Below are positions 2 to 19,713 of a stretch of DNA of 64,000 bases, in pieces. The position numbers and the translations under genes were made by a program. Position 1 is the stretch's first letter, and each line of letters begins with the position of its first letter. Location of the stretch: the NCBI GenBank assembly GCA_021325675.1, contig JAJTCM010000002.1, positions 62,001-126,000 of the forward strand, in the 5' to 3' direction. A model generated the notes under the pieces. It was not told the origin of the DNA and made no database searches. It saw nothing but the letters and a program-made list of their open reading frames with translations. This DNA comes from Crocinitomicaceae bacterium (GTDB taxonomy: Bacteria; Bacteroidota; Bacteroidia; Flavobacteriales_D; Crocinitomicaceae).

Positions 2-3000
2 GCGCCGCGTACGCCAATTGATAAATTGGTGTTGAATTACAAAACCAATGGCTTTGCCCTGACCCAATCGGAAGCGATTGATTTTCGCCAGGACCTGAAT
101 GCTGTCAGAATAGATTCCTTATACACGGCAACTCCTGTTTATTCAAGTGGGGCAGCTAACCAGTTTAACGGCTGGAAACGGTACAACCATTGCGAAAAAA
201 CAGGCTCTCCATCAAGCATGTCAGGAAGTTCAAACCCTTATCAAAGCTCCAATGGCTTTTTTCGTGATTTCGTTCCATCTGTTAACAAAATCCCATTCGA
301 CCATGGTTACCTGGAAAGTGAACGAATTCCGTCTGCGGAGCTTTTTCCGGGTGATATTTATGAAATCAGGACAAGGCTTACCCGGAATAACAATGATGAA
401 ACCATGGGAAATGGAACATTGGATATCGCTGTTGTTACGGGAAATTATGAAAGCAACTATGCTTCACCAAACGGTGCAACTATATCAGATGCAGGCAATA
501 ATATTTCCTCTGAAAACTATAATAAAATCAGGGGAATTGAATTGTATTCTACTTTCAATATGGCCCTGAAATGGCAAATGTCAAATGGGGAGAATGCAAA
601 GCAAACCTCCAACTTTTTTGTCATGCCCAATATTCCGGAAAGTTTCAAAGGAATTAATATCCAGGTTGGTCCGGGAAATTCGGATACTGATTACGGCTAC
701 AACACCCAATCACAATTTTACAATGATTTCCTGCTTCGCGAAAATAACACTACGGTACACTATAATGCTGTTGTTCCTTATTCGTTTGTAACACTGGGAA
801 GCGGCTTGAAATCCGCAGCAACTATTCCCCATAATTTTGGAGTTGGCTTGCCGTGGAGTAACATGCTCCCTTTAGTGAAACGAATGGCGCAGTCCATTCC
901 GCAGGTAACGGAAAATATATTTGAGCCGATCCATCCTTATTTTGATTTCTGGTGGACCCATAATGCGCAGGATATCGCTAATGGGAATAACAGGCCTACC
1001 AAATTTGATAACCAGACATTCCTGGACGAATTTGAGCTGATCCGCTATTCTAAGAACCCGTTTATGTTGGAAAGCGTTGAGATGTACCATTTGAACGGTG
1101 ACGAACAAGCAGGTGGATGGGTGCTGACAGGTAAAAAGCAATTCACATACGATGTCAACCGTATTCAGATGGCCGAAAACTTTGCTTACCCTTCAAATGA
1201 TAATGTTGCCCGCCCGCTGTATCTCAATTCCCATTTCCAGGTACAAATTCTATTAAAAAGTATCAGTGAAGTGCCGATTGATTACAATTATACAGCAAAC
1301 GATACAACTTTGCTGCAAACGACCTTTTTTGGCTATGAGAAATTTATCAAAGACGTAACGACTTACTATAAGCTATTGCCAAACACGGGATACCCGGGTA
1401 TGGTGCTGAACACGGTGGTAAACCCTTTGGGTGGGATCACCAGGATCATATATTACAATTACAACAATGCCCTGACGTATTCCAATTTTAATTTCACCCG
1501 CCCTCAATCTTGTGGAAACCCAACGCCTCCTTATGGTTATAGCGAAGTAGTGGATGTTCATCCCGTAGTGCATTATATTGTTGAGAACGACCAGGACAAC
1601 CGGGATTTGACCCAGTTTTCCAATCATCCGCTTTCAAACAGGACGGAGTATATTTTTGATAATAGCACCGTTACCGCAATTGATAAAAAACTGAATTACA
1701 CAAACAATTCCTTCCGCAACCGGAGCAACCATAATAATTATACAGGATTCGGGAAGGTAATTGTAAAAACCGCCAAATTGAATTCCGGGGAACAAAACGA
1801 AACCCATTATGAGCATTTCACGGACCTGGATCCTGATCCACTGGACCCTGATCTAAGCGAATTGGAAAAGTACCTCTATTTCGGAAAAATGAAATCCATT
1901 AAAAGTTATGATTCAGATGGGAAAATCCATGAGGAAAAATTATATCGTTACGAAAATACCCTTGCTTTTGAGAACGGTTATCTGCGCCCGAACCCTTACC
2001 GGGAGCATATTTCGTATGAAGAAAAATACTACGATCCGCTGCTTAATCCTTACGAATACCGCGATTATTACCTACAGGAATTTGTAACACAAAGCGGTTT
2101 AACAGGTGAAACTGCTTATCCTTTGCTGGATATTCCTCGTTTCCGTGGATCAGGAGAGGTGCTCGAAATGCCAAAATTCCTGGAATTTGAATATTTCCGC
2201 ATGCTTGAAACCCATAATCCGGCCTATAAAATGAATTCTTATTTTGTTCGTATGGCCGAAGAAATCAACAAAACGTATGAAAATTTCCTGTGGAGGGCCA
2301 GCCAGGGCGTTGTTAACCCGAATGGACCGGGAACTACTCAAATCAGCAACCCCAATGGAAACGGGCATAGCAATACGACCAACGCTAATAATGATGTAAC
2401 ACAGCTAGCCTTACTGACAGGAAATAATCCGAGTGCAAACAGTGCAAGCGCAACGTTAATTGCAGCTTCACCCTTGTCGGAAACCGTACTTGAGGGCGTT
2501 ATGAACACGGTGAAATTTAACGCCCAACAGAAAACAAATATCCTGCTGGCACAAAACGGATTGTCGAATAACTTGTGGGAGAAAGTTCTGTTAAATGAAA
2601 AACGTTTCACACCGCCACAACTGCTTTCGTTGATTGACAGGCAAAGTTATTTTGCGGACGCTACTCTACTTAAACTGATCGAATTAAACCACAAAAACCT
2701 CGATCCGAAAGTATTTGAAGCCATGCTGCTCAAAAAAGAATTTCTTTCCAACCAGGTGATGCTGGCCATGCTGAACACGCAAGGCTATATGGGAAGCAAA
2801 TCTTTCACGGAAGTTTTCATTAAGCAGCCGCACATGACAGAAGAAATTTTGGTGAAGCTGGTAGAAAGCCCTTACGTTGTAGTAAATTCTTTGCCGGATG
2901 CTTTGAAGCCGCAGAACATCACCGATCTTGTCTATCAAAAACTGGTTGATCGAACAGATGTTCCCGGAAACGTATTGGCAACAATTATTGAAAACGACCC

Positions 3001-6000
3001 GGTTTTCCCAAGTGAACAGAGCTTGTTGCATTTACTGGACCGTACGCCAAAAGTTGAACACGAAAATCTTAAACGCATTTTTGCAACTGCCAACCGCGAA
3101 ATTGAAGCTTCGGTAGAACAAAAGCTGAAAATCAAAGAACCGAACGAAAATAAACAAAAGGAAATTCTTGGACAGACGGTACGCCTAAACCCACTGAACC
3201 TGTATTGCAACAACGAATTGCAGCTAACCCGTGAGTTTATTGAAACGAAAACAACTTACGAGTATTACGAAGCGGACTACAAAGGCTCAACTACCGGAGA
3301 AGCTTACAAGACTCTTTTAGCGTTGGGTGAATTCCCACGCACGATCGATATGTCTGATATGCCTTTTGGTGACAATTCAACGCGTGTTATTGACAAGGTT
3401 TACCTGAAGCATGAGCCTTCGTTCCAGCTTTTCCGCAAGAAAACAACTTCCATTCATCAACCCGGAGCTTATAATGAAGAACAGCATTTTTATACCTATG
3501 ACCTGAAAAACCGCTATGACCGGTATTGGTTTAATTATGATGTTTTGAATGGAGGTAACTCCAAAGCGGGCGTTGATATTTACTCTTCCGGGGATTTGCA
3601 GGATACGTTGGGTTATAACCTCAACTGGGATCAGGATTACTGGAGAAACCTGGATCATATTTACATTTTGCCGAAATTTGATGCCATGACCCATTCCCAG
3701 GAAAGGAACATGCGTAACCTGCCTTTCCAGACAACGGTTTTCACTAAAAATGCCACCGATCAGGAAGCAGTTATGAAATCGGAATATTTTCATTATGATT
3801 CACGCGTTGATGTGAACATCAATTATACCTTTTTAGAAGAACATACCGATGGCCCGGACTGTCCGACAGAAACACCTGACCCGGTAACAGGCTGTGACGC
3901 CTGCCGCCAGGAAAAATATCCTCATACGGACTATTTCGAAGGGCTGCTGATGGCTGATTTACCTTACAATTACTGCTTGTGGGAAGCCCCAAATGTCGGG
4001 TATTACATTTGCCCGGCTGAATATACGATTAACCCATGCGATCCGCAGGCCATAAAATTGAATTGTAATCCTTCCATCCTGGAGGAAGAACCTTCCGGGA
4101 TCGGAGAAAATGAGGGCCCGAATAAAATGATCTTACTGGGAACTGGCGTAAAAAATACGCTACAGCTTAAACGAAGATACATGCAGGTAGACGATGTTTC
4201 CAGTGACCAGCCTGACTTCCTGGAAGACCGGATTGATTCGGATAACAATTATATCATGGAACTTTATATCGGCGCGCCGAATTCCATCGATGAAAACGGT
4301 TATGCGATAGATTACAAAGAACGTCTTCCGTTTGCTAATCTCAAGACAAGTGAAATCACGAAGCGTAACGCTTTCCTGCAGCCGGAAATTACGGTGAACC
4401 AGGTAGGGCTGAAAACCAGGTTTTATTATAACGAGCCGGTTCAAACGAGACACATTAATGATAACTGTGCAGCACAGAATTATACAACGGTTAATTTTGA
4501 AAACATCGGTAAACCGGTTCGCGTTACAATCGGTTACGGAAGAGCGGATTCGATTTCAACAACCTATGCTTACAGCCTGACAGATCAGCTTTCTAAAATC
4601 ACGCTCCCTTCCGGACATTATACGGAATATACCTTTGATGGTTTCCTGCGCCTGAAACAAGTTATGGAAAACGGTACACGTTTGTTATCCCGCACGGAAT
4701 ACAAGCAATGGAAGCACAATTTTAACCTGAATTTCCAGCAGCGAACAACTCAGAATTATGTGCATTCGATCCAGTACAACGAATACATCAATACGACAGA
4801 CCTGGTAGATACCAACCAGCGGGAAATCGCCAAAGCTTTTGTTGATCCATTAGGCAGGGAATATTCCGTTTCCCGCAATTACGGCTTGAATTACCTGTAC
4901 TCAGGAACAATCCGCTACGACAGATGGGGACGGGTTATTAAAAGCAACAAGCCAACCGCCCTGTTTGATAACGGCGGAAATATGACATTGGAGTTAAGGG
5001 ATGATACTAACACAGCATCGAGCGAAACGCTCTATGAAAACACACCGAAAAACAGGGCGCTCCGCTCATCTGACTTTGGAATGAATGTACAAGGACCAAA
5101 CACGGTGAGATCAGAGTTTTACTTTGCAAACAATGTCTTTACTTCGTGTGAGCTTGGACTGAGCCGGGATGAGCTTGCCATGCTTATGAAACAAGGCTCA
5201 ACTACGTATTTCCGTTTCCGCAGAACGAAGCTCATCGACCAGGATGACAAGGAAGTGATTGAATACAGTAACGCCTTCGGACAAAAAGTAGCAACTTTGA
5301 GCTACGATGATAACAATGCTAAAATCGTAACGCTGTTTGGATACGACAGCTACGGCAATGTAATCAAGGTGATTAATCCCGAAAAGCAGGAAAGCACCTA
5401 CGAGTATAACCTGATCGGTAAGCTCGTGCGTGAAAAAACAGTGGATGCAGGCGAAAAACGCTATATGTACAACAAGCATTTACAGATTTCGGCCATCCAG
5501 GACCAATTGCACAGGGATTACCGCGACCAGGGCGATAATTTTATCCCCTCCTACCGCAGCTTTAGCTATGACGATTATGGCAGGTTGCTCGCTCAAGGGA
5601 CAGCTGAACTGGAACGGATCATCAACCCTCAGAACCCGGGAGTTTCACCGGGACATTACGATATTTTCGCCTATGAAGACAAAATCGTTGCTTTACCGAC
5701 CTCAGACTACCGTTTCGAATATGTTTATTCAAACAAGAGCAGTTTGGACTGGCTGGCGACGTATAAGCGCAAAACGTCTAATTCTCCTTATAATATCATT
5801 ACGGTACAAGTGCAGCCGGTAATCGACGTATTAGAGAAAAAATACGAATATAGCATTGATGGAACTGCACCAACTGTTGGTAAACTCCTTACTTCCAAAA
5901 GCTATGATATCAGTGGAGACATGATCCAGCAAATTGATTATACCTACGATAGTGAAGATCGCGTAGCCAGCCAGGTTTTCCGGTTTGACAGCAATGGCTT

Positions 6001-8041
6001 GTCGGGAAATAGTTCTCCAGTCGCAACGATTTATTACCCGAAATACAATTTCAGGGGATCGCTGATGGAGGAAAAAATTGATTTGGGTTCGAACGGCACT
6101 ACGGATATGCATTACCATTATACGTATGATGAGCTGAACCGCCTGGTCAAAGTAGCGGCTTCCCAGGGCGAAGCGGTTAAGGCTTTGGATGCAACTTTAC
6201 TTGCCAGTTACGAATACGACAACGCCACCGGGCTGGTTAGTTTTGAACGCCATCATTTGGGACAAAATACCGAAGTGCTGAAAATTGAGCAAAAATACGA
6301 TGTGCGTGACCGTTTGAAACAACTTAGCTCAGAATTGCTGCGCTACGACCTGTTTTATGACGCAGATCAGCCGCCGGGATTTGATGGTCAGCAAGTGGAT
6401 TTTGGACGCAACTTCAACGGAAACATCAACGGAATATCCGCGACTTACCAATTTGCGGGAACGCAAAACCAACCCTCGAATTTTGACAGGCCAACGATTT
6501 ACGGTTACCAGTACGACAAGCTGAACCGCTTAACGAAAGCGGATGCGCTTTCCGGGGATTTTATCGAAGATGCAAGCGATCTGCAACAGCAGGAAAGCTA
6601 CCTGATCGGGGATGAACGCTATAGCTACGACCGGATTGGGAACATTAAAAACCTCGAGCGTCATAAAAAATCAATGACGTCAGGTGCGATGGCCGAACTG
6701 GAATCCTGGACTTACGCCTATATCACAGGAAAAAACCGTTTGGTGACTGCGATCGGTGCGCCGGGAACAGCTAACCGCGGATATACGTATGATGCGAACG
6801 GAAATCTTCTCCGGGACAATTTCAAGAACATGGATGTAGAGTTTATCACCCGGGGCGCGTATCCATCTGAACTAAAAAAAGACAATCAATATATCACTTA
6901 TTTGTATGATGTGAATGATTTGCGTATTTTTAAAAACTCAACTGTCTCCGGGCAACAGCAAAAAGAGTATACGCTGAAAGATATGATGAACCGCGATATC
7001 GCCACATACGACTACAATACTAGCTCCTGGACATTTAATGTTTACGGGAGTGCATTGGTATCGCGGGTGACGGCAGGCAGCGGTCAAATCAGCAACGGAG
7101 AAGCGACTTTTTATGTGTATGACCATTTGGGTAACTCACGGGTAACTTACCAGCCGAGCGCGCAGGGAACGATCGTGAACCGGACTATTATGTTCGCAGG
7201 AGACTATTTCCCTTACGGCAAGGTGTTGAGAGAGTTTGCCAATGGAGAAATCGAGCGTTACTTAACAACTTTCCATGATCGCGACCAGGAAACGGGATTA
7301 GATTATCGTGGGGCTAGGTATTATGACTCAGATATTGCAAGGTTCTTAAGTACCGATCCGTTACAAAATGAATATCCGAGCTACAGCACTTATAATTATG
7401 TAATGGGTAATCCAGTTGCCTTCGTTGATCCAACAGGAATGGCAACGGAAGATCCACCGAATAAAAAATTACTGAGCACAATCAGTGGAGGAGCAACAGC
7501 ACTGGGTTTTGAATTCGGAATGAGGATGCTTAATCAGGTGGATGTGAGTGCAGAAACCACTCCAAAGTTAACAACAGAAGAAGTTGGCGCAAAATTGAAA
7601 GCATTTACTGCTGCAATAGATCATTCACCGGATAATCCAATGAATATGCATTCAGGAGCTGCTGGTGAAGCTGATTGGTTCTGGCAAATGTTTATGCCGT
7701 TGCCGAAAGTTGGTGGATTTGGAACATTGACAACCAACAGCAGAGTTTTTTGGTCGGGCGGTGCGGCGGCAAAAACCACAGCAGCAAGTTATGCCAAAAA
7801 AGAAGGGATGAAAACTCTTGAAATGACCATGTCAGGACGAGTTATGAACACTTTAAATCCTATAATACCTCGTTCAATCTCAAACCCAATATGGAAGAAT
7901 TTGTCGGAAAATTTCGCTAGAGGTGCCTCTGGCGAAGCTCATCTCTTTACGAATGGATTGGTGCCTAAGCCAACAAGTATTTGGATGACAGTTGAAAAAC
8001 CTATATTAGATAAGAGTTTGGTTAATATATTAATTCATTAA
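2..8041 (+). CDS. Rhs/YD-repeat polymorphic toxin, 5' partial
   Basis: The reading frame is open to the window edge, so the true start lies upstream; 2679 codons are visible. Tyr-Asp repeats of the Rhs type recur in the second half (YTYDELNRL, YQYDKLNRL, YSYDRIGN, YTYDANGN). The Rhs core ends with DYRGARYYDSDIARFLSTDP and closes at FVDPTGM (7421-7441), the usual boundary before a variable toxin tip. The tip (7442-8041, about 199 residues) carries FWSGG (7748-7762), then W..LSENFARGASGEAH and E.PIL. This spacing resembles ADP-ribosyl cyclase/NADase-like toxins, but that is a weak inference. A poly-Asn/Gly linker and about 240 helical residues (2305-3175) interrupt the shell region. Rhs shells are known to encapsulate and deliver the tip to competitors. 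The immunity gene should be immediately downstream. Confidence 0.93.
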   Translation, partial: APRTPIDKLVLNYKTNGFALTQSEAIDFRQDLNAVRIDSLYTATPVYSSGAANQFNGWKRYNHCEKTGSPSSMSGSSNPYQSSNGFFRDFVPSVNKIPFDHGYLESERIPSAELFPGDIYEIRTRLTRNNNDETMGNGTLDIAVVTGNYESNYASPNGATISDAGNNISSENYNKIRGIELYSTFNMALKWQMSNGENAKQTSNFFVMPNIPESFKGINIQVGPGNSDTDYGYNTQSQFYNDFLLRENNTTVHYNAVVPYSFVTLGSGLKSAATIPHNFGVGLPWSNMLPLVKRMAQSIPQVTENIFEPIHPYFDFWWTHNAQDIANGNNRPTKFDNQTFLDEFELIRYSKNPFMLESVEMYHLNGDEQAGGWVLTGKKQFTYDVNRIQMAENFAYPSNDNVARPLYLNSHFQVQILLKSISEVPIDYNYTANDTTLLQTTFFGYEKFIKDVTTYYKLLPNTGYPGMVLNTVVNPLGGITRIIYYNYNNALTYSNFNFTRPQSCGNPTPPYGYSEVVDVHPVVHYIVENDQDNRDLTQFSNHPLSNRTEYIFDNSTVTAIDKKLNYTNNSFRNRSNHNNYTGFGKVIVKTAKLNSGEQNETHYEHFTDLDPDPLDPDLSELEKYLYFGKMKSIKSYDSDGKIHEEKLYRYENTLAFENGYLRPNPYREHISYEEKYYDPLLNPYEYRDYYLQEFVTQSGLTGETAYPLLDIPRFRGSGEVLEMPKFLEFEYFRMLETHNPAYKMNSYFVRMAEEINKTYENFLWRASQGVVNPNGPGTTQISNPNGNGHSNTTNANNDVTQLALLTGNNPSANSASATLIAASPLSETVLEGVMNTVKFNAQQKTNILLAQNGLSNNLWEKVLLNEKRFTPPQLLSLIDRQSYFADATLLKLIELNHKNLDPKVFEAMLLKKEFLSNQVMLAMLNTQGYMGSKSFTEVFIKQPHMTEEILVKLVESPYVVVNSLPDALKPQNITDLVYQKLVDRTDVPGNVLATIIENDPVFPSEQSLLHLLDRTPKVEHENLKRIFATANREIEASVEQKLKIKEPNENKQKEILGQTVRLNPLNLYCNNELQLTREFIETKTTYEYYEADYKGSTTGEAYKTLLALGEFPRTIDMSDMPFGDNSTRVIDKVYLKHEPSFQLFRKKTTSIHQPGAYNEEQHFYTYDLKNRYDRYWFNYDVLNGGNSKAGVDIYSSGDLQDTLGYNLNWDQDYWRNLDHIYILPKFDAMTHSQERNMRNLPFQTTVFTKNATDQEAVMKSEYFHYDSRVDVNINYTFLEEHTDGPDCPTETPDPVTGCDACRQEKYPHTDYFEGLLMADLPYNYCLWEAPNVGYYICPAEYTINPCDPQAIKLNCNPSILEEEPSGIGENEGPNKMILLGTGVKNTLQLKRRYMQVDDVSSDQPDFLEDRIDSDNNYIMELYIGAPNSIDENGYAIDYKERLPFANLKTSEITKRNAFLQPEITVNQVGLKTRFYYNEPVQTRHINDNCAAQNYTTVNFENIGKPVRVTIGYGRADSISTTYAYSLTDQLSKITLPSGHYTEYTFDGFLRLKQVMENGTRLLSRTEYKQWKHNFNLNFQQRTTQNYVHSIQYNEYINTTDLVDTNQREIAKAFVDPLGREYSVSRNYGLNYLYSGTIRYDRWGRVIKSNKPTALFDNGGNMTLELRDDTNTASSETLYENTPKNRALRSSDFGMNVQGPNTVRSEFYFANNVFTSCELGLSRDELAMLMKQGSTTYFRFRRTKLIDQDDKEVIEYSNAFGQKVATLSYDDNNAKIVTLFGYDSYGNVIKVINPEKQESTYEYNLIGKLVREKTVDAGEKRYMYNKHLQISAIQDQLHRDYRDQGDNFIPSYRSFSYDDYGRLLAQGTAELERIINPQNPGVSPGHYDIFAYEDKIVALPTSDYRFEYVYSNKSSLDWLATYKRKTSNSPYNIITVQVQPVIDVLEKKYEYSIDGTAPTVGKLLTSKSYDISGDMIQQIDYTYDSEDRVASQVFRFDSNGLSGNSSPVATIYYPKYNFRGSLMEEKIDLGSNGTTDMHYHYTYDELNRLVKVAASQGEAVKALDATLLASYEYDNATGLVSFERHHLGQNTEVLKIEQKYDVRDRLKQLSSELLRYDLFYDADQPPGFDGQQVDFGRNFNGNINGISATYQFAGTQNQPSNFDRPTIYGYQYDKLNRLTKADALSGDFIEDASDLQQQESYLIGDERYSYDRIGNIKNLERHKKSMTSGAMAELESWTYAYITGKNRLVTAIGAPGTANRGYTYDANGNLLRDNFKNMDVEFITRGAYPSELKKDNQYITYLYDVNDLRIFKNSTVSGQQQKEYTLKDMMNRDIATYDYNTSSWTFNVYGSALVSRVTAGSGQISNGEATFYVYDHLGNSRVTYQPSAQGTIVNRTIMFAGDYFPYGKVLREFANGEIERYLTTFHDRDQETGLDYRGARYYDSDIARFLSTDPLQNEYPSYSTYNYVMGNPVAFVDPTGMATEDPPNKKLLSTISGGATALGFEFGMRMLNQVDVSAETTPKLTTEEVGAKLKAFTAAIDHSPDNPMNMHSGAAGEADWFWQMFMPLPKVGGFGTLTTNSRVFWSGGAAAKTTAASYAKKEGMKTLEMTMSGRVMNTLNPIIPRSISNPIWKNLSENFARGASGEAHLFTNGLVPKPTSIWMTVEKPILDKSLVNILIH

Positions 8042-11199: not shown

Positions 11200-12369
11200 A
11201 TGAAAACCTCATTCATTTCTTTATTGGTTTTATTGAGCTTTAATTCAATTGCTCAAACTGAAGTAACCCAATTAACACCGGTTTCCCTTATTGAGGAACG
11301 TGTACATGAATTGGATGGTGGTACATTTATCGTTTTTGGTCAATCACGTGTTGTTATTCCAATAGATTTACCTAAAAATACGGTTGAATGGTATTACGTC
11401 TTTACATCATTTTCTAATACCGATGTGGTTGCAAGCAGATCAAATACGATCGATTTATTTTCTCAGATTTCAAAATTAATAGATCGCACCGGAACTACTT
11501 CTAGCGTTATAAGTGGCATTTTTGCACCAAATGGTTCTGCCGCGTCTAATGTATACATTTTAGGGTCAGAGAAAGATGCTTACAATTTTAAGATGAAAAC
11601 AGATTATGATCTTATACCGATTTATTGGAACGTTTATAATGATTTTTGTATCACAGCCGCAAGGCAAGGTAAAATGCGGATAAATGCGAATTTGGGAAAT
11701 AGGGTTTATCTGGGAATTAAAGCTGGTGATTCACCTGTTGTGGTCAAAATAGAAGTTGTTGCCATTGTGAAGGAAAAAACCGTTGATTACTCGACCTGGT
11801 CCGACGAGACAATTACGTTATTAAAAAATGCAATGATGGAATCTTTAGCCTCAGAAAATATTGAGAAAGATGTAGCCCGTCAGTTAACAGAGTGTACAAT
11901 TACTAAAGTGAAAAGCGAGTTTGCTCCCGATTTTTTTTCAGATTATCCTGAAAATAAAATTGGTGAAATTTTGGAAGGTTTTTATACAAAATGCTACGAA
12001 GACCTCTCAGGCCAGAAGTTAGGTCAAAATTATTCAAAAGCAGAAACTTTAGGTAATATGTCTTGGGAAACATATTTAACAGGAAACATTGATAAGGCTG
12101 TTGAACTCAGCTTGAAAGCCCTTGAATTAAATGCAGATTTAGCATACGTAAAAGGAAACTTAGGTCTTTACTACCTGGTGCAAGGTAAGGGTGATTTAGC
12201 GATGGATACATACATCGATGCGATTACTTTATTCAAAAACGATAAGCTACAGGGGAAAGAACTGTTTAAGGCTGCCCACGATGACCTTAAAGAAGCAGTT
12301 AAAAAATATCCTAACATGACCGGCTACCAGGCTATTTTGGCAGAGCTGGGGAGAGGGATGGAGAATTAA
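11200..12369 (+). CDS. secreted TPR-containing protein
   Basis: The start at 11200 gives a 389-residue protein with a standard signal peptide (MKTSFISLLVLLSFNSIAQ). An in-frame start at 11152 would put 16 residues before the signal peptide and is rejected. The middle is beta-rich and unrecognised (VVIPIDLPKNTVEWYYVFTS). The C-terminal third carries tetratricopeptide-type repeats (NMSWETYLTGNIDKAVELSL, then VKGNLGLYYLVQGKGDLAMD). It is expected in the periplasm, probably as a scaffold. It is preceded by a 228-base non-coding stretch containing hairpins. Confidence 0.65.
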   Translation: MKTSFISLLVLLSFNSIAQTEVTQLTPVSLIEERVHELDGGTFIVFGQSRVVIPIDLPKNTVEWYYVFTSFSNTDVVASRSNTIDLFSQISKLIDRTGTTSSVISGIFAPNGSAASNVYILGSEKDAYNFKMKTDYDLIPIYWNVYNDFCITAARQGKMRINANLGNRVYLGIKAGDSPVVVKIEVVAIVKEKTVDYSTWSDETITLLKNAMMESLASENIEKDVARQLTECTITKVKSEFAPDFFSDYPENKIGEILEGFYTKCYEDLSGQKLGQNYSKAETLGNMSWETYLTGNIDKAVELSLKALELNADLAYVKGNLGLYYLVQGKGDLAMDTYIDAITLFKNDKLQGKELFKAAHDDLKEAVKKYPNMTGYQAILAELGRGMEN

Positions 12370-12424
12370 TTCAATGAAGACAATCACCTTCATTTGTAAG
12401 TTGAAAAAACAAATAATCTAAATC

Positions 12425-13366
12425 ATGGCTCATAATTTATATTTGGGAATGTACACATATTCCGTTAAGAAAAAAAGAACAAGAAATGCGTCAATAATTG
12501 ACAACAATGATTTTTTAGAATTAGCATATCCTTCAGTTTCTGACAATAAATTTTCCAATGGCTTTGTTCAAGAGATTATTTCTCTTTTAGATGCAAAGGC
12601 GTATAAAAACTCGCAAAATACACATGGGGCAATGCTAGACGATTACAAAATAGATCAAACAGAAAGAACATTAGATATTTTAATAGATGGAGGACTGACT
12701 GGTATAAAGCAATTCATCATTGACGATGAAGGTACAAAAAGCGAGTTATCTGATGAAGATATAGTTGGTCCAAAATTCTTTGCAAGATTTTGGATGCCAG
12801 CTGGAACTAAAACGGTCTATGTTTTCATTCAGAAATATGGGAGTATGAGTATTAAACCAATTTTTGATTCTATTGTATATGATTTGCTTGATAAACACGG
12901 TTTTTCAATTACTGATAAATTAAAGGCAACCACCACAAAAAAGCGATTAAACACTTTTTTAAAGAATGCAGCATTAAAAAATATTACTGTCGTTAGTACT
13001 TCAGGCTTAAATGCAACTGGTGAAGCAGAAGCTTCAACCGTGGAGGTGAAATTAAGAAATTTTAAAGCTTTAAAAAAAACAGATAAATTGACTGATGTTT
13101 CTAATATAAAAGAAGCTTTAAAAAAACATGGATTTACAATGGGGAATAGAAAGTATGACATTAAAGGTACTTACGAATATTCTCATGATGGAATTAATGA
13201 AGAAAGAACGGTTAAGCTGGATGCAACAGAAGAAACTATTAATATCATTCCCAATATAGTTATTCCTCCGTATTGTATTGACTCAGATAATTATCCAATC
13301 TTTGATGAAATGATAAAATTGGTTATTGACGAAATGAAACAGGTTAAAATTGAAGCAAAAATGTAA
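12425..13366 (+). CDS. unrecognised cytoplasmic protein, first gene of a two-gene operon
   Basis: A 313-residue soluble protein, AT-rich in codon use, with no signal peptide or membrane helix. The N-terminal half contains FARFWMPAGTKTVYVFIQKY followed by SIKPIFDSIVYDLL. The middle is lysine-rich (KATTTKKRLNTFLKNAALKN), and the C-terminus has a beta segment ending IIPNIVIPPYCIDSDNYPIF. No catalytic motif is seen and the family is not recognised. The stop lies three bases before the start of a four-helix membrane protein. A cytosolic protein paired with a small multi-helix membrane protein inside a variable island is the layout of sensor/effector abortive-infection pairs. That role is inference only. 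Confidence 0.6.
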   Translation: MAHNLYLGMYTYSVKKKRTRNASIIDNNDFLELAYPSVSDNKFSNGFVQEIISLLDAKAYKNSQNTHGAMLDDYKIDQTERTLDILIDGGLTGIKQFIIDDEGTKSELSDEDIVGPKFFARFWMPAGTKTVYVFIQKYGSMSIKPIFDSIVYDLLDKHGFSITDKLKATTTKKRLNTFLKNAALKNITVVSTSGLNATGEAEASTVEVKLRNFKALKKTDKLTDVSNIKEALKKHGFTMGNRKYDIKGTYEYSHDGINEERTVKLDATEETINIIPNIVIPPYCIDSDNYPIFDEMIKLVIDEMKQVKIEAKM

Positions 13367-13369
13367 ATT

Positions 13370-13915
13370 ATGCTAGATGTTAAAGTTTTATTAAAAGTTC
13401 GCAAGGAAGCAATTGAAAGCATTAAAAAAGATAGCGAAGGCGAATTTATTGGAAAATGGTATAACCGTATATTTTTTTATATATTATGGTATATTCTGCC
13501 TCTCATAGGTGTTTCAGTTGTGATTTATAAAGGAATAAAACTAACTAATTTAGAAAATTATATAGGAGCAAGTATAGCATTATTCACCGGTCTGTTTTTC
13601 TCATTACTTCTTAGTTTAGGAGATAAATTGAGAACTGAAAAAGCAAATGTTAATGTAGACACTAACAATTATAATAAGTTCAAAGAAAATATGAGACAAA
13701 TTTCTAGAATTACTCAATTTATTATTTTAAAAGGTATTTTGATTTTTGTTTTACTTCTAATAAATTCTCTTGTAAAAACATCAGATTATTTATGTGTTGA
13801 GAATATTCTTACTGCAATTGCTATCTATATTTTAATACAATATACCATCTCAATAGGTTTTTTATTGCAACGCTTTCATCATACTATGAAGGATGAACTG
13901 AATAATACAATTTGA
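13370..13915 (+). CDS. four-helix membrane protein, putative membrane effector
   Basis: A 181-residue protein with an amphipathic charged N-terminus, then hydrophobic helices at about residues 33-53, 63-84, 121-139 and 147-168. A charged cytosolic-looking segment (GDKLRTEKANVNVDTNNYNK) separates helices 2 and 3. This two-plus-two plan is compatible with SLATT-like or other pore-forming defence effectors, but no signature motif proves it. It is co-transcribed with the 313-residue protein and ends at a shared terminator facing the reverse transcriptase gene. Confidence 0.6.
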   Translation: MLDVKVLLKVRKEAIESIKKDSEGEFIGKWYNRIFFYILWYILPLIGVSVVIYKGIKLTNLENYIGASIALFTGLFFSLLLSLGDKLRTEKANVNVDTNNYNKFKENMRQISRITQFIILKGILIFVLLLINSLVKTSDYLCVENILTAIAIYILIQYTISIGFLLQRFHHTMKDELNNTI

Positions 13916-13923
13916 AAGTGAAA

Positions 13924-13970
13924 TAGACAATCCTGCCCTACATCTAGAGTTTCTAGTGTTTTTTTGTCTA
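13924..13970. terminator. bidirectional terminator between convergent genes
   Basis: An outer stem, TAGACAA (13924-13930) with TTGTCTA (13964-13970), encloses CTAGA-GTT-TCTAG (13944-13956) followed by a T-run (13958-13965). It lies between the + strand membrane protein gene and the - strand reverse transcriptase gene. Confidence 0.6.
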
Positions 13971-13975
13971 AACAC

Positions 13976-15550
13976 TTATGATATTCTTATCTTAGAACGA
14001 ATTGGAGTATTTAAGTGCTTCTGAATTGCTTGATTAAACACACGCTTTTCTCCTTTAATCTGATTTAAGATTGCCGGCTCCTCCATGATTTCGGCAGCTC
14101 TTCTGGCATAACTAAAATAATTTCCTCTAAAAGGAATGGTTTTCTCTTTAGAAATTACTCTAAATTCACCGGTTTCAATTTTTGAAAAGGTTTTAAATTT
14201 TCTTTTGGTATTTGCTTTATCTAAATCAATATTTCTGTAAATTTTGTAAAGTTGTCTTTTAAATAAAATTGGTTTTGTTCCATTTAACTCAGCAATTTTC
14301 TTGGCGCGTTCACATTTCTTTTTTACAGAATAAATCATCCTTCTGTAAAGCTTCGATAAGTTGCTAGACTTAATCAACGTTTTGTTTCCATAAAACTCAA
14401 ACCCAAGATAAATGAAAGGCAAATTAGGTGTCTCAACATTGTCTATTATTTTGTGAGATACAATCTTTTTATTTACAAATTTAAAGATGAATTTTTCGGT
14501 TTTTTCTTTACTTATTGAAACAAAACATTTTTCCATCTCATCTATGACAACTTTTTCAACATCTTGTATTATGTTTTTGTCACACACAATGACAATATCA
14601 TCAGAATATCTGCTATAATAACAATTTTTACGATTAACTAATGTGTTAAGAATACTCGAATCAAAATCAAGCAAATATAAATTTGCTAATATCGCACTAA
14701 TCGGTAATCCCTGGGGAATTCCAATCATTTTTTTAGTCTTCTTATCCTTAAAATTGTTTTTGTAAATTCTAACACTCCCATTATTGACGTTTTCTCTGAA
14801 TTCTCTAGCAGATTCAAAAAAAGCATTAAACCCTTTAACATTTCTGATCTTAGCTAACTGTTTTTCATCAAATTCTGATTTTTTTCCATTACTATGAGCA
14901 TATTTTCTTAAATCATTTTTGTAAATGAATGAAAAATTTGTTGCTGAATTAAAAACATTCAAATGATCTTTTGGCAATGCTTCTTTTTGAATTAGCATTT
15001 TCCATTTATCATAGAGGTATTGATGATTCAAAGAAGAAAAGAAACTTTTAATATCAAAGGCTAAAACTGCACATTCTCCATTTTCTAAAGTTCTTTTTTG
15101 TATCTCTTTAAATGCATCATCTGCAAAATGAATAGTACCCTTATTTTTTTCATTACCATCAATAGAGATTTTTCTATAGGCGGTAATACATTCAGAAAGT
15201 CCTGGTGTTTTATTTAATTCCTCTTCATAAAGCGTTTGTAATTCAGATGCATAATAAGAATAAATTAAAGCATCCATGTGGTTAGCATAATGCAAAGGTC
15301 TGATTTTTTCTGTTCTAACCCATTTACCATCTTTGAAGTATGAATGTGTTCTTACCTTTTCATTATAAGGATGTTTTTTGTACTTTCTTTCTTTAAGATT
15401 GACATGTAGAAATGGGAAAAAAGCATAATTTTCCACATATTTTGAATTGGTTACTTTTTGAATAATACGTTTTTCATCCCTCCAATCACTACTAATTTGA
15501 GATGAAATATGATAGTATCCTTTTATTTTAAGCCAATTTGGTTTCCCCAT
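13976..15550 (-). CDS. group II intron/retron-like reverse transcriptase of unknown defence class
   Basis: A 524-residue reverse transcriptase from the ATG at 15548-15550. A TTG at 15646 would add 32 residues, but these cover the non-coding leader and the right arm of an inverted repeat, so it is rejected. RT motif A is FDIKSFFSS (about residues 165-173), motif B is GIPQGLPISAILANLY (PQG 279-281), the catalytic motif C is YSDD (315-318, encoded at 14597-14608) and motif E is YLGFEF (about 380). The N-terminus reads WLKIKGYYHISSQI. No group II intron maturase or HNH domain is seen. The NAxxH and VTG motifs of typical retron RTs were not found, and retron RTs are usually 300-350 residues. It is best placed among DRT/UG (unknown group) or abortive-infection RTs. 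The gene is AT-rich and lies in an accessory island. Confidence 0.88.
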   Translation of the reverse strand: MGKPNWLKIKGYYHISSQISSDWRDEKRIIQKVTNSKYVENYAFFPFLHVNLKERKYKKHPYNEKVRTHSYFKDGKWVRTEKIRPLHYANHMDALIYSYYASELQTLYEEELNKTPGLSECITAYRKISIDGNEKNKGTIHFADDAFKEIQKRTLENGECAVLAFDIKSFFSSLNHQYLYDKWKMLIQKEALPKDHLNVFNSATNFSFIYKNDLRKYAHSNGKKSEFDEKQLAKIRNVKGFNAFFESAREFRENVNNGSVRIYKNNFKDKKTKKMIGIPQGLPISAILANLYLLDFDSSILNTLVNRKNCYYSRYSDDIVIVCDKNIIQDVEKVVIDEMEKCFVSISKEKTEKFIFKFVNKKIVSHKIIDNVETPNLPFIYLGFEFYGNKTLIKSSNLSKLYRRMIYSVKKKCERAKKIAELNGTKPILFKRQLYKIYRNIDLDKANTKRKFKTFSKIETGEFRVISKEKTIPFRGNYFSYARRAAEIMEEPAILNQIKGEKRVFNQAIQKHLNTPIRSKIRIS

Positions 15551-15557
15551 ATTAAAA

Positions 15558-15571
15558 AATGTCCTGCAAAC
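15558..15571. repeat. inverted repeat arm next to the RT start
   Basis: This is AATGTCCTGCAAAC on the + strand and is perfectly complementary to 15857-15870. It ends seven bases upstream of the RT ATG when read on the minus strand. Confidence 0.85.
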
Positions 15572-15856
15572 TAGTAACGAATTATTGAATACATAACATC
15601 TTTCGACCGAACCGACACTCAAATTCTTGAGACACTTAAATTTCAATTTAATATATAATAATATGCAACAGGCAATAACCTTGACTCTTCCAATTATATT
15701 TCATATATTTGCTATTGTCATATCAGACTTAGTCGCTTCCCTTATAGAGGACTGGACGGAGGTCATCATGAACAATCTTTTTCCCTTTTCAGGTACATGA
15801 CAATGTAATAAATCACAAAGCCACCAAATGGTTCTTGTCAGACGTACTCATCTGTT

Positions 15857-15870
15857 GTTTGCAGGACATT
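15857..15870. repeat. inverted repeat arm distal to the RT
   Basis: This is GTTTGCAGGACATT on the + strand and is the perfect reverse complement of 15558-15571. It lies 59 bases before the divergent gene at 15930, so the promoter for the RT-side transcript should be in that gap. Confidence 0.85.
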
Positions 15871-15929
15871 GTAAATTTAATGTTTTTTGTTTAATTTTAA
15901 CACATTGTTGAACAAACTGACTTAATCAT

Positions 15930-17267
15930 ATGACTGAAAAAGAAAAATTGTCTGTTAACATAGGCAAAATTGTGAGCTTAAAATCAAATCATTTAAGAAC
16001 AACTAACCAGTATGATGAAATAAAGCTTGCTGGGGAACCGAATTACATCACGCCATTGATGGTTATTAAAGAAGTATTAGATTCAAAATCTGATAAAGTT
16101 GATGAAGAAACCGGAGAACTAAAAAATGTAAAAGGAAATCTTCAATATAGATGTATTTGGTTTTCAAACAAATCATTTAAATTTGAGGAGGGTTGGTTTT
16201 TTCATAATGAATTACTTTTTGTTAAATTAGATAATGCTGAAACACCAACTTTAAAATTTGGTGACAATGTTGTTTTAAAAACAAACTTTTTAGAACTTAA
16301 AAAAAGAAAAACATATCTTGAAATTGACAAAGACAAGTCAAACAACAAAATATCTGGATTATTAAATTTTTGTTCTCCAGTGTTTATTTTTTTAGGGTAT
16401 TCTTCCGTAGAAAAAAAGGAAGCATTAATAGATCCTAATACCGGGAAATCCAAAAGAGCATATTGTTCCAAATTAGTAAAGCTTAAATCTTTTAATGTAA
16501 AGGAAGATAAGTACTCTGAGTTTTTAGTTCCTATTGAAGCTATTGAAAAGGTTCTTATTCAGGAAAAGTTAATTAATGACATTTCAATAGCCCTTGAAGA
16601 AAATAAAAAGGAAAAAACAAATAGCCATTACATGATAGAAAAAGATGAAAACTTTGGTGTTTACAGTCCTAAGTCTATTTTGTCTGTTAGCAACTTCTAT
16701 ACTTTAGAGTGTGTAAATATATTCAAACAAAGTCATTTTGAAATTTCATTGAACGATACTAAATTAAAAAAAATTGAACTTCCTTTTCACGTTGAATTTT
16801 ATCCAGATATTCAGTCAGTTTCTGGTGGATTTATTATTGAAACCATACTAAACCATTTGCAAGAGGGAGATAGCAAAAATTTGCGTGGGCTATATAGAAA
16901 TATTTACCTCGATGAGGAGAATCGAAAAAGCAATATTGAGAAGTTACTTGGTCAATTGCATATTTATAAGATTGGTTATAAAAATAAACATGAAAAATAC
17001 ACAAATCGATTTGTTATTCCATTGAAATTAGTAGAGATCAATATTGAGAAAAGTAGTGAAAAGGACAAAATTAATGATTTTGATATGTCTAAAGAAAAAG
17101 ATCAAAAACAGGTTGAATTTTATCTCTATTCTTTTTGTCTATTAAGAAATGATTATCGATTTTTCAAAATTGATCGAATGCAATACCTTGAAATCCATAA
17201 CACACCTGAATTAGTCGAAAGTGCGATTAATTTTTGGCTTATATCTCAAGCTAAATATAAATTATGA
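15930..17267 (+). CDS. 445-residue protein with SH3-like modules and a WYL-like C-terminus
   Basis: A soluble, lysine-rich protein divergent from the RT. The N-terminal segment (GKIVSLKSNHLRTTN...PLMVIKEV...CIWFSNKSFKFEEGWF) follows the pattern of the small SH3-like DUF2158/YodC fold (G..V.LKSG.P.M.V...C.WF). A second, weaker copy follows (FGDNVVLKT to VKLKSFN and FLVPIEAIEKV). The C-terminus has YLYSFCLLRNDYRFFKIDRM, close to the WYL-domain ending (LR..YR.F.lDRi). These assignments are by eye and uncertain. The stop overlaps an ATG (ATGA, 17264-17267) that opened a now-decayed second gene, so it was the first gene of an operon. WYL proteins often regulate defence operons. Confidence 0.6.
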   Translation: MTEKEKLSVNIGKIVSLKSNHLRTTNQYDEIKLAGEPNYITPLMVIKEVLDSKSDKVDEETGELKNVKGNLQYRCIWFSNKSFKFEEGWFFHNELLFVKLDNAETPTLKFGDNVVLKTNFLELKKRKTYLEIDKDKSNNKISGLLNFCSPVFIFLGYSSVEKKEALIDPNTGKSKRAYCSKLVKLKSFNVKEDKYSEFLVPIEAIEKVLIQEKLINDISIALEENKKEKTNSHYMIEKDENFGVYSPKSILSVSNFYTLECVNIFKQSHFEISLNDTKLKKIELPFHVEFYPDIQSVSGGFIIETILNHLQEGDSKNLRGLYRNIYLDEENRKSNIEKLLGQLHIYKIGYKNKHEKYTNRFVIPLKLVEINIEKSSEKDKINDFDMSKEKDQKQVEFYLYSFCLLRNDYRFFKIDRMQYLEIHNTPELVESAINFWLISQAKYKL

Positions 17268-17359
17268 CAATCCCGAATTACAATCCAAAAACTTTGCTAA
17301 AAAGAATTTAAGGAGATGAAAGTTTTAAAGACGAACAAATTAAAAGTATAAGGGATTAG
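17264..17359 (+). pseudogene. decayed 5' end of a possible RecQ-like helicase gene
   Basis: The ATG overlaps the previous stop by four bases. The frame reads MTIPNYNPKTLLKRI, then a TAA (17309-17311), then GDESFKDEQIKSIRD and a second stop at 17357. LLKRI.GDESF..EQ resembles the start of RecQ-family helicases (LK..FG..SFR..Q..i). Nothing recognisable follows, so only the first ~30 codons survive. The operonic overlap shows that the 445-residue protein once had a partner. Confidence 0.35.
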
Positions 17360-17450
17360 TTATGGTTTTTAAAGTTTACTCTTAGGTTCTCAAAGTACAA
17401 TCTAAATTTAAAACTCATAAACCCTTGCCCTTATTCTGACCCCTAAGTCT

Positions 17451-17723
17451 TTAAGTTATTCCAGAAGCCTTATATATACTCAGCCTAGTAAACGCTGAAG
17501 GTATCGCATTTTGTGACATCAAGATTTCGAACTCATTCTCTGTGAGCTGAAACATGAAATCAGCGGGGAAACGATCTTCATTTCGTTTAACAGCCTGATT
17601 TATTTGCCTGGTTTCAACTCCATACAGTGACGCGAGATCGCTGTCAAGCATTACTTTTTTTCCGCGAAAAAGATAAATTTTACTGATGACCAGCTCATCA
17701 GGAATAATAAAAGAATCGTACAT
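17451..17723 (-). pseudogene. truncated ORF6N-domain (KilA-N-like) gene
   Basis: Ninety residues match the ORF6N domain: IPDELVISKIYLFRGKKVML, DLASLYGVETRQINQAVKRN, EDRFPADFMFQLTENEF. After LMSQN the normal continuation (a GGxR segment, then P.AFTEQGVAMLSSVL) is replaced by AIPSAFTRLSIYKASGIT and a stop, so about half of a typical protein is missing. ORF6N proteins are DNA-binding and common in phages and mobile islands. This copy is probably non-functional or a domain remnant. Confidence 0.7.
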
Positions 17724-17838
17724 AGGGTAGGTTTTTGAATAATGATTAAGTCTGTTTGATTACCAAATATAAACTTTTTCATACTTATTTACAAATCAGT
17801 TCGGTTTTTGTGTAAAAAATCAGGCTCAAACACTTAAT

Positions 17839-17883
17839 AAACAGGTATATATACCTGTTTTTTTCCGAATATTCGACCAAACC
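17839..17883 (+). repeat. palindromic element, copy 2
   Basis: A 22-base perfect palindrome (17839-17860, centred on GGTATATATACC) is followed by TTTTTTCCG and, after AATATTCG, ACCAAACC. It shares the plan hairpin-TTTTCCG-ACCAAA with 11093-11121. The rest of the 258 bases between the ORF6N remnant and the next gene is AT-rich with no other visible feature. Confidence 0.5.
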
Positions 17884-17981
17884 AACGGAATGTTCATTCA
17901 TCCAATAGTTTTTGTTTTTCCATACGGGCTTCCGGTTCCGGATTTCACTAAATTTAGGCATTACACTTAAACCTTTATAAC

Positions 17982-18293
17982 ATGAAGCGATCTATCTTGT
18001 CACTTTGTTTGTTAGCGTGCGTCTCAGCGTACGGACAGCAAAATTCAAAACCTTACAAATACGATCTCCGGATCGAAGATGTAACAAACCCGTCGGAAGC
18101 CAAAATGGTAACTGATATCCTTCGGGTGTATATCAATAAGCCAGAAAAGCCTTTCACTTATTTTCCCTCATTTATCGATGAGCGTGATAATTTTATTTTT
18201 AATTCAGAACGCGAAATCAGTGAAGATGAATTTCGGACTTACCTGAAAGACAAACATGATTTAACATTAATATATTGCAAAAAAGTGAACTAA
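17982..18293 (+). CDS. small secreted hypothetical protein
   Basis: A 103-residue protein with a clear signal peptide (MKRSILSLCLLACVSAYGQ). The mature part includes YKYDLRIEDVTNPSEAKMVT and a C-terminal charged segment. The pattern of a short periplasmic protein with VTNPSEAK..td.lr suggests a variant of a heavy-metal-associated or SPOR-like alpha/beta fold, but no family is claimed. Codon use returns to the GC-richer style of the core genome. Confidence 0.6.
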   Translation: MKRSILSLCLLACVSAYGQQNSKPYKYDLRIEDVTNPSEAKMVTDILRVYINKPEKPFTYFPSFIDERDNFIFNSEREISEDEFRTYLKDKHDLTLIYCKKVN

Positions 18294-18366
18294 AAACCAG
18301 ATTACCTTACAAAACCGACAGGGCCTGACCGCTTGCGAGCAAGACTTACAAACTAAAACCAGAATT

Positions 18367-19713
18367 ATGAAAGCACTTTTATCAGCTATCCTGTTTAACC
18401 TATTGTGCCTGCAACTATTTGCGGCCTTCTGTAATCCCGGAACTTCCCAGGGAGCGATTACACCAACCACTGTCAATCAAACAACTGCCGCTATGGGCAA
18501 TGGCGTCCGTCCTTATTTCACTTTCCCGGTCCAGGCCGGCTGTGAATACACCTTCAGTACCTGTGGATCAAACAATGGCGTTGATACCTACATCCGTATT
18601 TATGATGGGGTAAACGGTAACTTCCTGATCGGAAACGATGATGGGGCAGGCTGTGCCGGCGGTGCCTCCAGGCTTACCTTCCTGGCTAACGTAACCGGTA
18701 ACTGGGTAGTGTTCATTTCCCGGTATCAAAGTTTCGCAAACCAATGCGCCAACCTTTCAGCTAATATCCAGCTGCAGTATTCCCGTAATTGCGCACACGG
18801 AACGTCAGAATGCTGGGGCGGGACACAGATTTGTAACGACCAGACTTTCACCGGAAACAATGACGGGCCGGGAGATTACCAGGAATTAAATGCTTCCAAT
18901 GCAGGCTGCCTGACCAACCTTTTCGGATCAACGGAACACCAGTCTTCGTGGTATTATTTTATACCGACAGCGAACGGAAATATTGATTTTACCATCGAAA
19001 CGGGCGTCGATTACGATTTTGCTGTCTGGTCCGGGCCTGGCGTGAACTGCGGGGCACTCGGTCTGCCAATCCGCTGTTCTTATGCTGCTGACCCCGGCTT
19101 TACAGGCCTGGGAAATGGCGCTCTTGATCCTTCCGAAGACGCAGCCGGCGACCGGTATGTTTCCACACTGAACGTGAATGCAGGGCAGTTTTACATTCTG
19201 CTAATCGACAATTTTACGGCTGACAACACTCCTTTTACGATTAATTTCAGCTTCTCAGCGCCAAACCTGCTCAATTGCAACCCGATTCCCCTGCCGGTTA
19301 CTTTATTTTCCTTTGAAGGCGAGCATCAATCCGGTGGCAATAAGCTGTCCTGGCTTGCTTTGAATGAAAATAATAACGCCTATTATACACTGGAACGCTC
19401 TACAGACAACCTCCTCTGGGAATTTGTGACTGAATTGGAAAGCATACCGCCCGACTCGAAGCTCAATCCGAAATATGAGGTCTTTGACCAGAATTTCCAC
19501 CGCAACCAGCTGAACTATTACCGGCTTTCACAAACGGACGTGGACGGCAACAAAACTATTTTTGAGGACAGGATCGTTGTTATCGACAATACGATAGATT
19601 TGACGTCACCTGTCAAAATCGTCAATATGCTCGGACAGGAAATCCAGGATGAGTATAAAGGCTGGGCCATTGAAATTTATTCCGACGGAAGCACCCGGAA
19701 AATTTTCCGGTAA
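18367..19713 (+). CDS. secreted cell-surface protein with T9SS-like C-terminus
   Basis: 448 residues with a signal peptide (MKALLSAILFNLLCLQLFAA). Two beta-sandwich segments rich in Cys, Gly and Asn follow. The first has YTFSTCGSNNGVDTYIRIYD, the pattern of pre-peptidase/PPC-like binding domains; the second has WYYFIPTANGNIDFTIETG. The C-terminal region (LERSTDNLLWEFV, YYRLSQTDVDGN, then VKIVNMLGQE...IEIYSDGSTRKIFR) matches the fibronectin-like plus sorting-domain ends of proteins secreted by the type IX system. Probably a surface adhesin or matrix protein. Confidence 0.75.
   Translation: MKALLSAILFNLLCLQLFAAFCNPGTSQGAITPTTVNQTTAAMGNGVRPYFTFPVQAGCEYTFSTCGSNNGVDTYIRIYDGVNGNFLIGNDDGAGCAGGASRLTFLANVTGNWVVFISRYQSFANQCANLSANIQLQYSRNCAHGTSECWGGTQICNDQTFTGNNDGPGDYQELNASNAGCLTNLFGSTEHQSSWYYFIPTANGNIDFTIETGVDYDFAVWSGPGVNCGALGLPIRCSYAADPGFTGLGNGALDPSEDAAGDRYVSTLNVNAGQFYILLIDNFTADNTPFTINFSFSAPNLLNCNPIPLPVTLFSFEGEHQSGGNKLSWLALNENNNAYYTLERSTDNLLWEFVTELESIPPDSKLNPKYEVFDQNFHRNQLNYYRLSQTDVDGNKTIFEDRIVVIDNTIDLTSPVKIVNMLGQEIQDEYKGWAIEIYSDGSTRKIFR

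Follow-up and report, generated by a model that had tools for sequence, protein, structure and literature searches.

Relation to described systems

The closest described system is DRT2 (UG2) of Klebsiella pneumoniae (structure 9c0i). According to the parts of PMC12039810 and PMC11100668 consulted here, its reverse transcriptase (RT) copies a 120-nt template lying between two ACA words and jumps back, and the product is a repeating gene with an endless frame (Neo). The units of homologues measure 111, 117 and 129 nt, and the promoter is split across the repeat junction. The same parts of PMC11100668 report one shared start site in Klebsiella, leave open the step that parts the non-coding RNA (ncRNA) from the RT mRNA, and describe the published DRT2 systems without further genes. 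For divergent DRT2 clades they note that Neo is harder to annotate and suggest alternative mechanisms. DRT9, in the part of the literature consulted, is reported to make homopolymers.

The locus described here lies in a window of 64,000 nt, by which we mean the whole stretch of DNA that was analysed. It shares with Klebsiella DRT2 the RT family and an ncRNA directly upstream of the RT. It also appears to share a word-bounded unit that is divisible by three and endless in antisense, and the 129 nt predicted for the window is among the published lengths. Unlike in Klebsiella DRT2, the window RT is about 100 aa longer, the candidate word is ATTG and not ACA, and the locus has a WYL-YodC neighbour. 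A closing stem with a T-run separates the window from the Klebsiella-like loci tested. Retrons are similar in layout only, with a1/a2-style inverted repeats enclosing an RNA before the RT, and differ from the window in RT family and motifs. DRT2 itself is already known; our comparisons suggest as new a closing stem that bounds the ncRNA and jump words that are specific to clades. Neither was found in the parts of PMC12039810, PMC11100668 and PMC12596737 consulted, and an earlier description is possible.

The reverse transcriptase

13976..15550, minus strand: reverse transcriptase of the DRT2 family with a YSDD active site, 524 aa (open reading frame, HMM, sequence and fold searches)

A first, sequence-only reading of this DNA had described an RT of 524 residues. 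Its coordinates were exact (ATG at 15550, end at 13976, minus strand) and the motifs it named were found, with PQG from residue 279, YSDD at 315 and FDIKSFF also present. NAxxH and VTG are motifs of retron RTs, and pattern searches of the 524-aa protein gave no match to either. The view that the protein is no retron RT agrees with these searches, with the HMM scores and with the fold.

Among the best 25 of 44 PADLOC matches, two Drt2 models came on top (410.8 and 270.9 bits) and the next family was RT_UG17 (89.4 bits). The NCBIfam Drt2 model was covered over its full profile with 319 bits, which is below its equivalog cut-off of 390 bits, an annotation threshold, and so places the RT outside the narrow Klebsiella-like group. 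The nearest solved structures by sequence were DRT2 chains (E 4e-40), followed by Drt3a (E 1e-8). A fold search with a structure model built from six relatives (mean pLDDT 72) returned DRT2 9c0i first at E 2e-27, whereas DRT9, which like the window locus is a Class 2 DRT with an ncRNA, formed the second group at E 5e-11. Judged by its profiles and modelled fold, the window RT is a divergent DRT2 (UG2) in the broad sense. The earlier reading is upheld in so far as it proposed an RT of the defence type preceded by a structured RNA element, but membership of the RT in the known DRT2 family means that the locus is no new system.

The nearest relative of the RT, in a Bacteroidetes MAG (L001), is 68% identical. 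Among 99 near genomes, only the window's own had a match at E 1e-20. The phylum gave matches in 12 of 395 genomes and the class in 10 of 395, with the window's own counted in both, and three other families gave them in 26 of 397, 17 of 331 and 21 of 320; all these counts depend on the E limit of each search. The protein scan of viral contigs with the window RT gave no match, and the scan with the RT alignment gave seven distant loci.

Leader and closing stem

15857..15870, minus strand: 5′ arm of the closing stem, AATGTCCTGCAAAC (pairing, relatives, shuffle test)
15558..15571, minus strand: 3′ arm of the closing stem, GTTTGCAGGACATT, in minus-strand sense (pairing, relatives, shuffle test)
15551..15870, minus strand: predicted ncRNA of about 315 nt with putative ends, from the 5′ arm to the T-run (kept in L001; folding; positions of box and T-run)
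15554..15559, minus strand: terminator-like run of six T where the 3′ arm ends (sequence)
15872..15879, minus strand: TAAATTTA, candidate −7 element in a promoter for the ncRNA (match to the consensus)

The two arms pair over 14 of 14 nt at a spacing of 285 nt, and the RT start codon follows 7 nt past the 3′ arm, all of which had been read correctly from the sequence. In the 380-nt leader, 14 bp is the longest perfect inverted repeat, and one of 2000 dinucleotide shuffles reached this length, so the earlier estimate of a chance in the order of one in several thousand was about right. The −7 promoter consensus of Bacteroidota is TAnnTTTG. In L001 the arms are kept and flank an alignable leader, and when the leaders of the window and L001 were folded the arms formed a closing stem (z −3.0 and −3.7). 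An Rfam search of positions 12000–18500 gave no match up to E=1.

We scored closing helices by pairing the 40 nt that precede the RT start with the region upstream, taking mispaired loci as the null. The mean best-helix score of 29 Bacteroidota DRT2 leaders was 13.30 against 10.00 (sd 0.31) for mispaired loci, a value reached in 0 of 20000 permutations (z 10.8). At the same settings, 22 later-fetched loci of the window clade scored 14.69 against 10.24 (0 of 20000, z 11.2). Thirteen DRT2 leaders from elsewhere, nine of them from named bacteria or plasmids and four from viral contigs, gave no closing-stem signal (10.14 against 10.20), with two weak negatives among them: L053, with a start defined by the match instead of a start codon, and L057, with an annotated start far upstream of the match. 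The 29-leader test left out close kin of kept rows (L029, L031, L034, L037, L045 and L047) as well as L010 (no stem, rank 20 of 40), L020 and L024. The 22 loci were picked by eye from 35 new ones against near-duplicates, and some kept rows are still kin. Rows without a usable start codon or leader (L011, L013, L016, L017, L048 and L049) were removed, together with the incomplete L026 and L055 and with L060, which duplicates L019.

The stem also shows compensation. In an alignment of clade A made from sequence alone, both partners had changed in six of 12 pairs and pairing held in 91.7% of cells, each matched in 0 of 500 shuffles, and shifting the alignment by one column lowered the pairing to 71.5%. 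The covariation in further pair types was not in excess over shuffles (109 of 500). Rather than being lost where the RT is kept, which the sequence-only reading had named as a refuting observation, the arms are conserved with compensating changes. The stems in DRT2 loci measure about 7–17 bp, and a convincing one is absent in a few loci (L010, L012 and L089).

Sequences flanking the arms were also counted. With the weak-helix loci L012 and L089 omitted and A/T trimmed at the arm ends, so that the result is somewhat favoured, 31 of 49 loci carried a TAnnTTTR box in the 30 nt preceding the 5′ arm, a box that occurred in 40 of 855 control windows, and the T content was 80% over the 7 nt past the 3′ arm and 45% over the final 25 nt before the start codon. 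As far as comparison of the loci goes, the arms close a DRT2-type leader in most of the Bacteroidota DRT2 loci tested; for this reason they are no sign of msr-msd chemistry, and the suggestion that they are retron-like repeats has to be abandoned. Because of the box upstream of the 5′ arm, the stem probably marks both the start and the end of the ncRNA transcript. For the Bacteroidota branch, it is a concrete candidate for the element that sets the ncRNA ends.

Predicted template units in clades A and B

The longest antisense open frame of the 29 Bacteroidota leaders had a mean of 78.0 codons, compared with 55.6 in sense and 46.8 after shuffling, and reached an individual p<0.05 in 20 of them in antisense and in four in sense. 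In 12 leaders from elsewhere the antisense open frame was without significance. As a control, all seven Klebsiella-like loci yielded 117-nt units bounded by ACA words and having an endless frame, the ACA pair being one of four column pairs that passed in 7/7.

A scan of six clade B loci left two adjacent column pairs that passed in 6/6, with the words ATTC or TTTC. Across the whole clade the units at these columns span 114 to 162 nt, and 16 of 16 have a length divisible by three and one common endless antisense frame; ten of the 16 loci had no role in the choice of columns. The words at the two ends match in four letters in 12 of the 16 (ATTC, TTTC, ATAC, ATTT) and in three letters in three, and L050 has a matching ATTC three bases further along; this word identity was above all 20000 permutations. 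Clade A loci have GTA as the word (GTT in L033), identical at both ends in 10 of 12. Their units run from 171 to 189 nt; each of the 12 has a length divisible by three and is endless in antisense, with three frame phases among them. Within this clade (L006, L027–L037), the phase of the endless frame varies by sublineage and the length stays divisible by three, which looks as if the Neo frame had turned over.

By word identity alone, the pairs chosen in the two clades rank first of 13750 and of 11500 column pairs. Column pairs that are endless in antisense in all loci are not rare as such (110 of 13750 and 472 of 11500), and in sense no column pair was endless in all loci in either set (13750 and 11500 pairs). 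As the loci are related, the counts in clades A and B are not independent trials, and it is the differing unit lengths and words across related loci that carry the weight. The codon positions of substitutions in 13 close pairs showed no bias (112/105/126) and no signal of selection on Neo residues, and two of the 13, the window pair included, gave nothing because the chosen frames were mismatched. Scanned alone, clades A1, B1 and B3 each gave several competing column pairs, and word searches in single loci returned many chance repeats.

Taken together with the window, these patterns suggest that the published ACA jump word is replaced by repeated words specific to each clade, namely GTA, ATTC/ATAC and, in the window, ATTG. 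We consider it fairly probable that template jumping has no fixed word and that the ends need only match and co-evolve (ACA, GTA, ATTC, TTTC, ATAC, ATTG), so that Neo genes would be present in divergent Bacteroidota clades, with an ncRNA bounded by its own closing stem and a Neo frame that may turn over as long as length and openness are kept. If true, the way in which the family chooses what to copy looks more flexible than published. The matching-word rule would also make Neo genes in Bacteroidota easy to test for, and it names the bases that should shift or break the jump.

Predicted template unit in the window

15648..15776, minus strand: predicted 129-nt template unit in the ncRNA (window/L001 comparison)
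15773..15776, minus strand: ATTG word 1, the opening letters of the template unit (window/L001 comparison)
15644..15647, minus strand: ATTG word 2, directly past the template unit (window/L001 comparison)
15648..15776, plus strand: predicted Neo repeat of 43 codons, without stops across junctions in one of three frames (window/L001 comparison)
15681..15711, plus strand: TTG-N20-TATATTTG, candidate promoter within the unit in the Neo direction (motif search)

In both the window and L001, one ATTG directly follows the conserved block on the 5′ side and another directly precedes the one on the 3′ side. Both units measure 129 nt and are endless in exactly one antisense frame. Two column pairs passed with a 4-nt word in both loci; one is the ATTG pair, whose basis is four letters in two loci. 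In the window alone the antisense open frame has p=0.25, and in a scan of L001–L005 the best column pair passed in only two of five loci.

In the wider window clade we analysed 39 ungapped loci, with one gapped row of 40 (L083) omitted. At the aligned columns, 28 lengths are divisible by three and 11 are not; the 28 divisible units are all endless in antisense, seven of them in sense too. Words match at these columns in only three of the 39 loci because they are offset by three bases in the alignment. The shifted pair, with L001 and L002 omitted, is third of 2325 by word (18 of 35) and gives 25 of 35 units that are divisible and endless; the two pairs that outrank it by word are other conserved bases, and the highest count of endless units (26 of 36) is shared by a neighbouring column pair. 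Since the word and length results are weaker in the wider clade, the 129-nt unit of the window is a good prediction but no proof. Neo-type gene synthesis is likewise predicted for the window locus.

Regarding the Neo promoter, L001 and L003 have a site of the TTG-N20-TATATTTG type at equal spacing, and none occurs on the sense strands of the 29 leaders. A junction promoter was sought by eye only. The promoter-like site in the window sits whole within the unit; the Neo promoter may lie inside it, unlike the split one of Klebsiella.

Two other features noticed by eye were dropped. One was GATAT as a shared Klebsiella primer site, which the E. coli leaders seem to be without; the other was TGTACC as the 5′ boundary, after TGT-ACA, for which no matching second word was seen.

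Proposed mechanism and alternatives

On balance, we think that the window holds a divergent Bacteroidota DRT2 locus for phage defence, with Neo synthesis and the closing stem as a terminator. The phylum is the one indicated by the relatives L001 and L018. Transcription would start at the 5′ arm, and the closing stem with its T-run would end most transcripts and set the 3′ end of the ncRNA, with the RT mRNA arising by read-through past the stem. The RT would hold the ncRNA as in Klebsiella DRT2. Upon phage infection it would copy the 129-nt unit, jump from word 1 to word 2 and make a concatemeric cDNA. This cDNA would then be transcribed, perhaps from the Bacteroidota-type promoter within the unit, and the resulting endless, hydrophobic Neo reading frame would stop growth. 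Three elements of this account emerge directly from comparison: the DRT2 family of the RT; a conserved structured leader closed by the arms, flanked in many relatives by a promoter-like box and a T-run; and, in the middle of the leader, a unit of a length divisible by three that has the same word at its ends and an antisense frame free of stops.

The main rival agrees on DRT2 and Neo and takes the stem as a processing site, for example for RNase III, that splits the ncRNA from the RT mRNA, with no terminator. The parts of PMC11100668 consulted report a single start site and a processing step in Klebsiella, and stems of some 7–17 bp are in keeping with such a site. The T-run past the 3′ arm, however, points to termination, and the Klebsiella-like loci tested have no such stem, so processing in loci of the window type need not equal that of Klebsiella. 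We regard the processing site as possible but rather unlikely.

Less likely again, and in our view improbable, is a DRT2-family RT with some other cDNA function and no Neo, in which base composition or RNA structure would produce the open antisense frame incidentally. The absence of codon-position bias and the varying frame phase among clade A sublineages speak for it, as do the alternative mechanisms that the consulted parts of PMC11100668 propose in divergent clades. It is difficult to reconcile with unit lengths in clades A and B that vary and are nevertheless all divisible by three, with an antisense frame free of stops, and with the lack of any column pair that is all-endless in sense.

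A retron or retron-like element, with the arms as a1/a2, an RT primed on a branching G and msDNA as the product, would explain inverted repeats enclosing an RNA directly before the RT, but retron identity is ruled out, to the extent that we give it next to no credence, by HMM scores (43.6 bits for the best retron model among the best 25 of 44 PADLOC matches and 52 bits in NCBIfam, against 411 for Drt2), by the missing motifs and by the DRT2-like fold. A chance origin of the repeat is just as implausible, for although an equally long one arose in a single shuffle of the 2000, closing stems of differing sequence recur in two separate sets of loci.

Genomic surroundings

15930..17267, plus strand: divergent neighbour, RT-associated WYL-YodC protein, 445 aa (PADLOC profile)

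The neighbour of the leader matches the PADLOC profile RTasWYL-YodC with 221 bits over most of the profile, and is the one match in the genome; the association of WYL-YodC proteins with RTs is, by the existence of this profile, already catalogued. Of 16 clade W and A loci, 14 have a WYL-YodC relative adjoining the RT, the exceptions being L030 and L037 with none in the available flanks; of the 16 clade B loci, mostly viewed with 1.5-kb flanks, none has one. No paper linking WYL proteins to DRT2 was found in the literature searched. A role of the neighbour in sensing or regulation would be a guess. In L001, positions 809-3289 next to the WYL-YodC gene encode a 628-aa protein, which matched restriction-enzyme and AAA-type defence models weakly, and one of 193 aa that had no matches.

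Positions 8–18 kb of the window have a GC content of 29–35%, and the remainder 40–49%. The low GC suggests transfer, and the stretch with the DRT2 locus is probably an acquired island. Downstream of the RT, positions 12425–13915 carry two adjoining genes for proteins of 313 and 181 aa, without family matches at the cut-offs used. An ORF6N-domain gene of 90 aa (17451–17723) is located near the right edge of the low-GC stretch, and an open reading frame of 2671 aa (26–8041) lies directly ahead of it.
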